Shown here piece by piece: positions 16,256-31,367 of a stretch of DNA of 64,000 nt (position 1 is its first letter; each line of letters starts with the position of its first letter). Under the pieces are notes generated by a model. The model was not told the DNA's origin. It worked only from the letters and a program-made list of their open reading frames with translations, and did no database searches. The position numbers and the translations under genes were made by a program. Origin of the DNA: Hymenobacter sp. GOD-10R (GTDB lineage Bacteria; Bacteroidota; Bacteroidia; Cytophagales; Hymenobacteraceae). The stretch spans positions 2,508,501-2,572,500 of the forward strand of contig NZ_CP141184.1 of assembly GCF_035609205.1 (NCBI RefSeq), in the 5' to 3' direction.

Positions 16256-16320
16256 CGTTGAAACTATTACAAACCCCTTTGATTGTCGTTAGCAGTTCCT
16301 TAGGGTGGGTAGGACCTTTG
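16256..16320 (+). promoter_or_regulatory. Shared operator/promoter module, copy 1 (SDR gene)
   Basis: Box 16256-16282 holds GTTGA and TTTGA 21 nt apart; after 33 nt comes GACCTTTG with CTTTG at 16316-16320, a -7-like element. It agrees with the paoABC/cupin/AKR boxes at 18 of 27 positions against the cupin copy. The sequence from 16276 to 16328 is also closely repeated at 17424-17477. The SDR start is 109 nt beyond CTTTG. Confidence 0.7.
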
Positions 16321-16428
16321 TAAGGTCGTTCGCTGGCTGTATCAGCCGGCGGCAAATGGATAGCGCGGGGCGGTCGCAAATGGGCGCGCTACCGGCATTT
16401 TTTGCAGCTATCCCTAACCTAAATAGCT

Positions 16429-17199
16429 ATGTTAAGCAACCAACAAGGAGAATTCACCGGCAAGGTGGCGTTTATCACCGGGGCTGGAACGGGCATCGGC
16501 CGCGCTACGGCGCTGGCTTTTGCGCAGCAGGGTGCCCGCGTGGTAGCCGCCGATATCTCGATTGAACAAAGCCAAGAAACTGTGCAGCTGATCGAGCAGG
16601 CCGGCGGCCAGGCCCTGGCCGTCACGTGCGATGTGCTACGCTCGGCCGACATTCAGGCGGCGCTGGCACTTACCATCGGTACGTACGGCCGGCTGGACTA
16701 CGCCTTCAACAACGCGGGTGTGGAACAAGAGCAGATGCCAGCGGCCGATATTGAGGAAGAAGAATGGAACCGTATCCTGAATACGGACCTCCGCGGCGTG
16801 TTTCTGTGCATGAAGTACGAGCTGCCGCTGCTGCTTAAACAGGGCGGCGGGGCTATCGTTAATACCTCGTCGGGGGCAGGGGTGAAGGGTATTCCGGGGC
16901 AGGGAGCGTACTCGGCCGCGAAGTTTGGCATCATCGGCCTCACCAAGTCGGCGGCACTGGACTATGCCGCTAAAAACATCCGCATCAATGCGGTGTGCCC
17001 CGGCTTTATCGACACACCCATGATGGACCGCTTCAGCGGCGGCACGCCCGAAGGCCGCGAGAAAATTGAGAAGCAAGAGCCGATTGGCCGCGCCGGCAAG
17101 CCGGAAGAAATTGCCAGCGCCGTCTTGTGGCTGTGCTCCGACCTGGGTGGCTTCACGGTCGGCCACGCCCTGGTGGTGGATGGTGGCCAAACAGCTTAG
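16429..17199 (+). CDS. Short-chain dehydrogenase/reductase (classical SDR)
   Basis: A 256-residue cytoplasmic NAD(P)-dependent oxidoreductase of the glucose-1-dehydrogenase/FabG-like group. Seen: cofactor loop TGAGTGIG at 17-24, NNAG in [12 protein letters not shown], catalytic pair Tyr161-x3-Lys165 in YSAAK, and PGFIDTPM after it. An Asp/Glu-like residue after beta-2 (VVAADIS) would favour NAD. The gene has its own shared-module promoter and is followed by an MFS exporter-type gene under a second copy. That suggests conversion and export of a small carbonyl or alcohol, but the substrate is not known. Confidence 0.92.
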
Positions 17200-17261
17200 G
17201 AGGCGCAATAGGCAACCGATAACGCATTGTTGCGCGTGGCTTTGCCGCAACCAACTTAACT

Positions 17262-17333
17262 ACGTTCCGCTGGGGTGGGGCGCCTGGGTGCTGGCAGTTG
17301 TCGGGCCCTGGGCTCCCCACCCCAGCGGAACGT
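17262..17333. repeat. Perfect 19-bp inverted repeat downstream of the SDR gene
   Basis: Arms 17262-17280 and 17315-17333 (ACGTTCCGCTGGGGTGGGG and complement) flank a 34-nt loop, followed by GCTTTTACTTTC. It may end SDR transcription. The form matches a dispersed palindromic repeat rather than a compact terminator. Confidence 0.75.
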
Positions 17334-17403
17334 TGCTTTTACTTTCTACTACCCCTTGGCGAAGGCGCTGCCAGCCTGGCCTGAAGCTAAGTCTGCCCCG
17401 ATT

Positions 17404-17469
17404 ATTTGAATCGAGTAATCACTCCTTTGATTGTCGTTACCGACTCCTTACTGACCCCAGGGACCTTTG
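17404..17469 (+). promoter_or_regulatory. Shared operator/promoter module, copy 2 (MFS gene)
   Basis: TTTGA at 17405-17409 and 17426-17430 are 21 nt apart; after 34 nt comes GACCTTTG with CTTTG at 17465-17469. The MFS start is 113 nt beyond. The right half (17424-17477) nearly repeats the SDR copy, including TTGATTGTCGTTA and ACCTTTG. Confidence 0.7.
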
Positions 17470-29140: not shown

Positions 29141-29231
29141 AGGGCAAAGAGTAAAACAGGTATACCTACGGCCCGTCGCCTTCGCTAGGCCACTTTCAGC
29201 AGGGCCGACATCGTGCAGAGGAAGCCGCTAT

Positions 29232-30227
29232 TTAGCGATTTATCATCTTTTGCTGAGCCTCGGCGTAGCGGTCACCCACCAGGGGGATGCGCGCGGCGGC
29301 CTCGCCGATTTCGCGCAGGTCGTCGGCCGAGAGGGGTAGGGCGGCCGCGCCTAGGTTCTCTTCGAGGCGGTGCAGCTTGGTAGTGCCGGGAATGGGGGCA
29401 ATCCAGGGCTTTTGGGCCAGCAGCCAGGCCAGCGCAATCTGGGCGGGCGTGGCTTGCTTGTCCTGAGCAATACGGCCTAGCAAGTCTACCAGGGCCTGGT
29501 TGGCCTGGCGGGCGTCGGGCGAGAAGCGCGGCACCGTGCTGCGGAAGTCAGTCTTATCAAACTGGGTGTTCTCGTCAATTTTCCCGGTCAGAAAGCCTTT
29601 GCCCAATGGGCTGTACGGCACGAAGCCGATGCCTAGCTCTTCGAGGGTAGGGAGGATTTCCTGCTCCGGCTCGCGCCACCACAGCGAGTACTCGCTTTGC
29701 AGAGCCGCCACGGGCTGCACGGCGTGCGCCTGCCGGATGGCCTCCACGCCAGCCTCACTCAGACCGAAGTGCTTGACCTTGCCCGCCGCAATGAGGTCCT
29801 TCACGGCGCCGGCCACGTCCTCCATGGGTACATTGGGGTCCACGCGGTGCTGATAAAGCAAGTCGATGCGGTCGGTGCGCAGTCGCCGGAGCGAGGCATC
29901 CACCACCTGCCGAATCTGCGCGGGCTGGCTGTTGAGGCCACCGCGGTTCTGGCCGGTTTGCTGGTCGATGTCGAAGCCAAACTTGGTGGCAATGACCACT
30001 TGGTCGCGCACGGGCTCCAGGGCTTCACCTAGGAGCGCCTCGTTGGTCCAGGGGCCATACACCTCGGCCGTGTCGAAGAAGGTCACGCCCCGCTCCACGG
30101 CGGCGCGAATCAGCTGAATCATCTCATGCGAGTCGTGAGCCTGGCCGTAGCCGAAGCTCATGCCCATGCAGCCCAGGCCGAGGGCCGATACCTGCAGGCC
30201 ACTGGTGCCCAATGCGCGTTGTTGCAT
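29232..30227 (-). CDS. Aldo/keto reductase
   Basis: 331 residues, NADPH-dependent (beta/alpha)8 barrel reducing aldehydes or ketones in the cytoplasm. Seen: [20 protein letters not shown] start, catalytic tetrad members in [16 protein letters not shown] (Asp, Tyr), [10 protein letters not shown] (Lys) and LLYQHRVDP (His), and the C-terminal [14 protein letters not shown] cofactor loop. It matches the AKR11/13-like group. It lies 60 nt after the first reductase in one operon. Confidence 0.95.
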
Positions 30228-30287
30228 CTGATAAGGGGGGATTAAAGGAAAAGATGGGGGTAGGGGGCGTAAGCGGCCAAGAAAAGA

Positions 30288-31139
30288 CTAGAGGTCAAAC
30301 TTTACCTCGCTCATCCACTTCACAATGGCGGAGTCGCGGTGGTCGAAGAAGGCGCTGGCGTTGGTGTCCAGCGTCTGAATAGCGGCTAGGTCCTCGGCGC
30401 TCAGCTCAAAGTCGAATACCTGGAAGTTTTCGGCAATGCGCTCGGGCTTGACGGACTTCGGAATCACGACTACCCCGCGCTGCGTGAGCCAGCGCAGTAC
30501 TACCTGCGCCACGCTGCGCTGGTACTTGGCCGCCAAGTCTTGCAGCAGCTTGTTGGTAAATAGATTGTTGCGCCCCTCCGCAAAAGGGCCCCACGACTCT
30601 AGCTGCACGCCGTTTTCCTGCAGAAATTGCTGGGTTTCGACTTGCTGGTGGAAGGGGTGCGTTTCAATTTGATTGACGGCTGGCTTCACCTCGTGGTGCA
30701 CCAAGAAGTCCATCACGCGGTCATTCGGGAAGTTGCTGACCCCAATAGCCCGGATTTTGCCGGCGTGGTACAGCTCCTCCATCGCCCGCCACGCGCCGTA
30801 CACGTCGCCGTAGGGCTGGTGGATGAGGTACAAATCCAGGTAATCGAGCCCGAGCTTCTGCAGAGATTTTGCAAATGCGGCTTTCGTGGGCTCGTAGCCC
30901 GCGTCCTGCACCCACAGCTTGGTGGTGATGAACAGCTCTTCGCGGGGCACGCCGCTCTTCTGAATGGCCCGGCCCACCGCATCTTCGTTGCCATACGCCG
31001 CGGCAGTATCAATCAGGCGGTAGCCCGCGCGCAATGCCGCCGAGACGCTAGCCTCGCATTCCTGCGGGTCCGGAATCTGGTATACGCCGAAGCCCAGCAG
31101 GGGCATCTGCACGCCGTTGTTAAGGGTTGTGTATTGCAT
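30288..31139 (-). CDS. Aldo/keto reductase of the DkgA (2,5-diketogluconate reductase) type
   Basis: 283 residues. Seen: [29 protein letters not shown] (Asp, Tyr), [10 protein letters not shown] (Lys), [20 protein letters not shown] (His), and [20 protein letters not shown], the AKR5 cofactor signature. In E. coli the related DkgA, controlled by the AraC-type YqhC, reduces methylglyoxal and furans. Here an AraC gene is in the same operon, so the comparison is suggestive. First gene of the operon, preceded by the shared module. Confidence 0.95.
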
Positions 31140-31301
31140 GGTTATCTGAAAGGGTAAAAATTAAAATGACAGCGTGCGGCGCATGACGTTTTTTGTCCCG
31201 TCATCGGCGCCCGCTACTTATACCCGCCCTGGCGAGCGTTAAGATTACTAGCCAGAAAAGTCCGGCAAGGAGCTGCGTTAAGCAGCTCTGGAGTGTTGGG
31301 A

Positions 31302-31367
31302 CAAAGTTCGGGTAACCTAGGGCCGGTACTTGTATTACTATCAAACGGATTCTTATACTAATCAAAC
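31302..31367 (-). promoter_or_regulatory. Shared operator/promoter module, copy 5 (AKR operon)
   Basis: Box 31341-31367, read leftward, has TTTGA twice 21 nt apart with GTATA and ATCC between; after 34 nt comes GAACTTTG (CTTTG 31306-31302). The first reductase starts 162 nt beyond. Confidence 0.85.

Follow-up and report, generated by a model that had tools for sequence, protein, structure and literature searches.

At the araBAD promoter of Escherichia coli, AraC acts as a class II activator; its direct half-sites, araI1 and araI2, lie 21 bp apart, and the downstream one reaches -35/-33. The housekeeping promoter of Bacteroidota has the form TTG / TAnnTTTG. For the hybrid two-component systems (HTCS) of Bacteroides, one report gives predicted direct repeats, composed of 16-bp sites with a 5-bp spacer or 12-bp sites with a 9-bp spacer, as well as a 14+6 form (PMC3878776). 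AraC direct repeats are already known, including the 21-bp period predicted for HTCS (PMC3878776). E. coli YqhC is described as an AraC/XylS activator encoded beside yqhD-dkgA, and aldehyde/aldo-keto reductases are upregulated by glyoxal or furfural (PMC5297802). Here, we analyzed a 64,000-nt stretch of the Hymenobacter sp. GOD-10R genome (NZ_CP141184.1, positions 2,508,501 to 2,572,500; hereafter the window, numbered from its first base), in which five genes or gene groups are preceded by the same module: an operator (or box) of two TTTGA-type direct half-sites and, at a fixed distance, a -7 element. Comparison with related genomes makes it very likely that each module is the operator and core promoter for class II activation by AraC-type activators of one Bacteroidota subfamily.

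Geometry of the five modules

The module upstream of a short-chain dehydrogenase/reductase (SDR) gene (module 1, 16257..16320, plus strand) reads GTTGA-N16-TTTGA-N33-CTTTG toward the gene, with GTTGA at 16257-16261, TTTGA at 16278-16282, and the -7 octamer GACCTTTG at 16313-16320. Module 2, upstream of a putative major facilitator superfamily (MFS) transporter gene (17405..17469, plus strand), reads TTTGA-N16-TTTGA-N34-CTTTG (half-sites at 17405-17409 and 17426-17430, -7 octamer GACCTTTG at 17462-17469). The same string is found on the minus strand in module 4, ahead of a cupin operon (28085..28149; half-sites at 28145-28149 and 28124-28128, -7 octamer GACCTTTG at 28085-28092), and in module 5, ahead of an aldo/keto reductase (AKR) operon (31302..31366; half-sites at 31362-31366 and 31341-31345, -7 octamer GAACTTTG at 31302-31309). 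Module 3, ahead of paoABC (24349..24413, minus strand; TTTGA at 24409-24413 and 24388-24392, -7 octamer TACCTTTA at 24349-24356), also has a gap of 34 nt and ends in CTTTA. Reading the sites confirmed the five positions and the gaps of 33, 34, 34, 34, and 34 nt given by an initial sequence-only reading of the window, whose ranges include one base ahead of the first half-site; the pao, cupin, and AKR boxes do share GTATA and ATCC. Bases 33-35, in the second half-site, are TTA or TAC in four of the five modules and TTT in the cupin copy. A near-identical copy of module 4 is present in a relative (G049:C19:11351), and the second half-site of the SDR module, TTTGATTGTCGTTA, also occurs in relatives.

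The claim that these promoters lack a -33 TTG held as well: none of the five modules has a TTG 17-23 nt ahead of the -7 octamer. The cupin module has one TTG 16 nt ahead of it. By contrast, the tRNA-Glu gene in the window (13278-13350) is preceded by TTG-N19-TATCTTTG, the difference that the sequence-only reading had pointed out.

KTTGA-N16-TTTGA matched six times in the window, against a mean of 0.12 in shuffled sequence, and none of 100 shuffles reached six. A chance origin was rejected on the basis of the shuffles and the reversed controls described below. The sixth match, a lone GTTGA-N16-TTTGA at 7049-7074, has no CTTTG at the fixed distance and probably arose by chance. Since the search pattern was taken from the sites themselves, genome-wide and held-out tests carry more weight than the window count. 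In the 7.5-Mb genome, KTTGA-N16-TTTGA-N30..38-MYTTT matched six times, namely the five window modules and C1:3382092, while the reversed pattern matched once. The sixth genome match lies directly at the 3' end of an AraC gene (C1:3381188-3382090) of the subfamily defined below, followed by an SDR-like open reading frame (ORF; judged by eye). A scan of the genome and its relatives had been named as a test of the regulon, with attention to sites scattered among unrelated genes; many such sites were not found, and the single genome match outside the window stands beside a subfamily AraC gene. The operator without the -7 element was unspecific (TTTGA-N16-TTTGA, 32 genome matches versus 25 reversed), so it is the -7 element at a fixed distance that confers specificity on the module.

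Across 120 genomes of the same genus, TTTGA-N16-TTTGA-N32..35-ACYTTTG had matches in 48, with one reversed match. With free spacings (N6-26 and N22-46), there were 108 matches in 54 of the 120 genomes and five for the reversed pattern. Among the matches listed, 99 of the 108 had the geometry of N16 plus 33 or 34 nt (searched as 30 or 31 nt to GACCTTTG, equivalent to 33 or 34 nt to CTTTG), which the reversed pattern never produced; the other nine had another geometry.

Five matches of the fixed-spacing genus search (L009, L022, L026, L027, and L034) were rejected as modules. They are iteron-like tandem repeats of 21-22 nt starting with TTTGATTCG that fit the pattern by accident, and the neighboring ORF resembles a plasmid replication initiator. 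We also noted that genus matches are often clustered. In one genome, seven modules lie within ~22 kb (L067-L068, G082:C2:184001-220000), surrounded by AKR-like and other oxidoreductase-like ORFs and one short AraC ORF.

Association with one AraC subfamily

Two of the window units end in a gene for an AraC-type regulator. AraC1 (24601..25581, minus strand) closes the cupin unit and AraC2 (28220..29140, minus strand) the AKR unit; they are 44% identical. Both belong to the AraC/XylS family, with PF12833 (HTH_18) scores of 70.3 bits for AraC1 and 65.4 bits for AraC2 (cutoff 33.6), while the N-terminal part of either protein had no Pfam match at E 0.001. Two closer identities were considered and rejected. 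HpaA (TIGR02297) scored 72.0 and 60.7 bits, far under its cutoff of 274.65, and HTCS proteins were dismissed since neither a sensor kinase nor a receiver was present, helix-turn-helix (HTH) domains alone being found in proteins of 306 and 326 amino acids.

We built a subfamily profile (A1) from 20 relatives, that is, proteins from the window and from box-bearing loci, with both window regulators included. In the genome, A1 found ten members at 437-312 bits, among them AraC1 (397.1 bits) and AraC2 (436.9 bits); the next protein scored 130 bits. Six of the ten loci have a module in their 1.5-kb flanks (scores 24-43, from a matrix trained partly on the loci tested); in two of these six, one half-site is imperfect. 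Conversely, 18 of 19 other AraC-like loci lack a module (best score 5.8), and the remaining one has a neighboring member's site in its flank.

The same link was seen when loci were chosen by their AraC protein, for which we took the best 80 of 595 confirmed places. As A1 was drawn from box-bearing loci, this choice is free of bias toward the box only for what goes beyond membership of the subfamily. TTTGA-N16-TTTGA was present within 360 nt around the AraC 3' end in 50 of these 80 loci, whereas any other spacing from 0 to 40 occurred in at most two and the antisense N16 arrangement in one. In 49 of the 50 box-bearing loci, [ACT]TTTG followed at 33 nt (7 loci) or 34 nt (42 loci). A separate weight matrix was then made from 64 distinct genus boxes and applied to 75 held-out AraC loci not labelled Hymenobacter. 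A module was found on the same strand within 400 nt of the AraC 3' end in 68, 67, 65, and 63 of the 75 loci at thresholds of 15, 20, 24, and 28, respectively. Matches elsewhere in these loci numbered 25, 25, 24, and 16, and reversed sequence gave none; even placement of all matches would put approximately three at AraC ends.

Searches that began from the DNA pattern led to the same proteins. At least 25 of 40 fetched genus regions, a part of the matches with clusters taken first, contained an AraC found by the profile, which scored at least 150 bits in at least 20 of the 40; simple ORF calling makes both counts lower bounds. A search of the order matched 93 of 194 genomes, chance matches among them, and all 20 regions chosen by eye (three from a family search) had a profile AraC at E 1e-10. 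With the operator alone, a search of the phylum matched 127 of 296 genomes, and many of the listed matches look like chance; a subfamily AraC was present in 17 of 20 regions chosen by eye. The exact box was found in Flavobacterium, Chryseobacterium, Pedobacter, Mucilaginibacter, Dyadobacter, Chitinophaga, Larkinella, Algoriphagus, and Mesonia, among others. The module is not phylum-wide, however, as many genomes lack even an operator-alone match, for example most genomes of the lineage labelled f36. The sequence-only reading had proposed a regulon run by the two AraC proteins encoded in window operons. The comparison strongly supports an AraC-activator regulon but not its restriction to those two proteins, as the module belongs to a whole Bacteroidota subfamily.

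Which regulator serves which module is partly resolved. Modules with the SDR/MFS second half-site TTTGATTGTCGTTA are present in seven of the 120 same-genus genomes, and an AraC1 of at least 83% identity in 11. Six of the seven genomes with an SDR/MFS-type module have the close AraC1 on the contig of the module, no more than 20 kb away; the one exception is a genome of 82% completeness. This co-occurrence points to AraC1 as the predicted regulator of SDR and MFS. The five modules might then be divided, with AraC1 serving SDR, MFS, and its own operon, AraC2 serving AKR and pao, and perhaps other regulators from the genome taking part, given that it encodes eight further subfamily members. All five modules nevertheless share one core, and no residue-base rule parts AraC1 from AraC2; we regard such a division as plausible, at somewhat less than even chances.

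Half-sites, core promoter, and the predicted mode of activation

To describe the module, we turned to the fetched loci, which contain 142 subfamily AraC genes, and used the 89 AraC-box pairs in which an exact box follows the gene within 350 nt. The first half-site is TTTGA-W-N5-YA(A) and the second TTTGA-W-N5-Y-(T/A)-A, so both approximate TTTGA-N6-YWA with a period of 21 bp. A G stands ahead of the second TTTGA in 88% of pairs. Conservation runs to position 35, no position from 36 to 57 exceeds 0.29 bits, and information rises again at the -7 element, for which the commonest octamer is TACCTTTG (21 of 89; TTTG itself was demanded by the search). The gap was 34 nt in 75 pairs and 33 nt in 14, although 31-36 nt had been permitted. 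Descent can preserve sequence in related loci, and the module could on that account be functionless spacer kept by ancestry, or a product of chance. The low information at positions 36-57, where half-sites, gap, and -7 element are kept on either side, and the absence of matches in the reversed control of the held-out test contradict this explanation, to which we assign a practically negligible probability.

A gap of 33 or 34 nt in all 89 pairs places the second half-site on the -33 region. If transcription starts, as we assume, a few nt after TTTG, this half-site would span approximately -49 to -33, near the position that araI2 has at araBAD. TTA occupies positions 33-35, near the -33 place, in 54 of 89 pairs, and a TTG at 17-23 nt is found in five. 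The predicted activator site overlaps a -33 region that has no TTG at the normal spacing in any window module and has one in few of the pairs, an arrangement that would suit a class II promoter. We propose that a dimer would bind the two direct repeats of approximately TTTGA-N6-YWA, set 21 bp or two helical turns apart, with both DNA-binding domains facing one side. The downstream half-site would cover the place of the missing -33 element, and the bound protein would replace the contact of a -33 TTG to the sigma factor, so that RNA polymerase could start from the -7 element alone.

AraC can also repress, through looping, and the subfamily proteins might instead be repressors, class I activators, or dual regulators, with the weak -33 region incidental; sequence gives no proof of activation. 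Against this stand the rarity of TTG at normal spacing (5 of 89), the well-kept -7 element, and the strict gap (33 or 34 nt in 89 of 89, with 31-36 nt permitted), and we consider it improbable.

Each half-site contains two conserved patches ~10 bp apart. Patches at 10 bp within repeats at 21 bp are the layout expected for AraC-type domains, which have two helix-turn-helices each, when a dimer lies on one face of the DNA. Mutual information (89 pairs, effective n 28) was used to look for a code linking HTH residues to operator bases. The outcome was negative, the signal from the HTH part being no stronger than that from the N-terminal part. Residue 267 correlated with both of the equivalent positions 12 and 33, and N-terminal residue 86 did likewise. 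The lack of detected covariation with AraC DNA-binding residues would suit a module read by another regulator or an alternative sigma factor, with the AraC genes mere neighbors. But 67 of 75 held-out loci, which were chosen by AraC protein, place the module at the AraC 3' end, 18 of 19 other AraC-like loci lack it, and the spacing of the patches suits an AraC dimer; these observations make this reading highly improbable.

Several observations weigh against the proposed class II activation by the subfamily. The second half-site of the cupin module, with its TTT, deviates from the YWA consensus. No module lies within 1.5 kb of four of the ten subfamily members in the genome, and among the 142 subfamily genes of the fetched loci, 53 are without an exact box within 350 nt. 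An exact SDR/MFS-type second half-site is missing from five of the 11 genomes that encode a close AraC1. Residue-base covariation was not enriched in the HTH: the top 50 pairs comprised 34 N-terminal and 16 HTH residues, counts proportional to the columns tested (169 and 78). Lastly, the loci are related by descent, hence the counts reported here are not independent events.

The first TTTGA provides, with its TGA, the stop codon of the AraC gene in 55 of the 89 pairs, and in 54 of those the gene ends in GTT-TGA. TGA stops were used by 64 of 89 genes with a box versus 17 of 53 without. This arrangement is looser in the window. AraC2 also ends in GTT-TGA, as in many relatives, and module 4 starts 70 nt past its stop codon; AraC1 ends in TAA, and the distance to module 3 (pao) is 187 nt. 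The GTT-TGA end of AraC2 (28220-28225) has no second half-site and is possibly a relic of the operator arrangement at the stop codon. One promoter grammar could serve the whole AraC subfamily in Bacteroidota as a portable cassette of regulator, operator, -7 element, and target, in which the last codon and the stop codon (GTT-TGA) would double as operator bases; with the operator in the regulator's end, transcription or translation through it could displace the activator and give feedback. We regard this extension as speculative and rather unlikely. If true, a built-in feedback would link the making of the regulator with the firing of the target.

Units in the window and comparison with known systems

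On the minus strand, module 5 is followed by two AKR genes and AraC2. The first (30288..31139) matches PF00248, with DkgA as best NCBIfam model, below its cutoff; the second (29232..30227) also matches PF00248. Module 4 is followed by a mandelonitrile-lyase-like cupin gene (27546..28028; NF049940, 140.6 bits, cutoff 140), a carboxymuconolactone decarboxylase-like (CMD) gene (26754..27515; PF02627), a hexapeptide acetyltransferase-like gene (26162..26734; PF00132), a second cupin gene of the same type (25630..26250; NF049940, 140.7 bits), and AraC1, all on this strand. The second cupin likely starts at an ATG near 26112, downstream of the listed ORF start (judged by eye). Module 3 is followed on the same strand by a gene for a PaoA-like iron-sulfur subunit (23554..24255; PF01799 and PF00111; best NCBIfam model PaoA, below its cutoff) and two listed ORFs (22091-23077 and 19694-22045), the name paoABC being that of the sequence-only reading. 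On the plus strand, module 1 precedes the SDR oxidoreductase gene (16429..17199; PF13561; NF004818, 350.6 bits, cutoff 336) and module 2 the putative MFS transporter gene (17582..18822; listed as ORFs 17492-18166 and 17962-18822, and named in that reading).

Each AraC gene closes a module-led unit and stands directly before the next module, which makes positive autoregulation and a relay likely. The window set likely forms a chain of positively autoregulated units (AKR, cupin, and paoABC) plus SDR and MFS, with operon limits as predicted here. A strong hairpin lies between the SDR and MFS units (17262..17333, plus strand; z -8.57 for 17255-17340) and another between AraC1 and module 3 (24440..24525, minus strand; z -3.22); the interval from AraC2 to module 4 had no outstanding hairpin (z -0.4). 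Scans of the window were not enriched for terminators (22 versus 18.3 in shuffles) or for sigma-70 promoters (4 versus 4.8 in shuffles).

We also noted some further features in and near the SDR and MFS units. The putative MFS gene lies in two reading frames that overlap at 17962-18166, and a relative (L097) with a similar N-terminus has one longer open frame. Upstream of the SDR module, 15860-16100 holds a decayed AraC-type HTH-like stretch with one frame reading SEIAYECFRFPQHFTRLFK and stops around it; its match to the subfamily is weak (E 0.019). An in-frame TAG closes a secreted-protein-like ORF (15060-15407), and beyond it the frame stays open for ~90 more codons (15060-15680).

The sequence-only reading had expected carbonyl-related targets. 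A greedy longest-ORF script, some of whose calls may be wrong, identified the first gene downstream in 85 of the 89 pairs. Pfam assigned these genes to hexapeptide acetyltransferases (28), short-chain dehydrogenases (20), cupins (9), aldo/keto reductases (8), epimerase-type proteins (8), S15 hydrolases (5), and MFS transporters (4), and one protein may match several families. NAD(P)H oxidoreductases are frequent, but acetyltransferases, cupins, hydrolases, and transporters occur too; the families being mixed, the label fits many first genes, not all. These targets suggest, as a guess, a small carbonyl or aromatic compound as the inducing signal.

As far as the searches show, the TTTGA operator, its fixed 33/34-nt distance to the -7 element, and the use of a stop codon as part of an operator are undescribed among the open-licence literature matches listed. 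The module offers a rule, readable from sequence, for predicting which genes a large group of AraC regulators controls, suggests how Bacteroidota promoters without a -33 element could work, and may lend itself to compact inducible promoter design in this phylum, for which few tools exist. It is an unusual constraint for a stop codon to overlap an operator, and one open to direct test.

Compared with known systems, the modules share the TAnnTTTG-like -7 element of the Bacteroidota housekeeping promoter but differ from it in that a TTG at 17-23 nt is limited to 5 of 89 pairs. Like AraC at araBAD, the regulators have an AraC-type DNA-binding domain, that of A1 matching the AraC domain structure 2k9s (E 1.5e-9), and their predicted operators consist of two direct half-sites set 21 bp apart on one helix face; unlike it, they have another half-site sequence, a Bacteroidota -7 element in place of the -10, and mostly non-sugar genes as predicted targets. 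The Bacteroides HTCS are similar in their AraC-type DNA-binding domain and predicted 21-bp period (PMC3878776). Unlike the window AraCs, they are described there as membrane sensor kinases with a receiver domain that regulate polysaccharide genes (PMC3878776). YqhC differs from the window AraCs in its divergent gene order at one locus (PMC5297802). It resembles them as an AraC-family regulator whose gene adjoins aldehyde reductase and aldo-keto reductase genes (PMC5297802).

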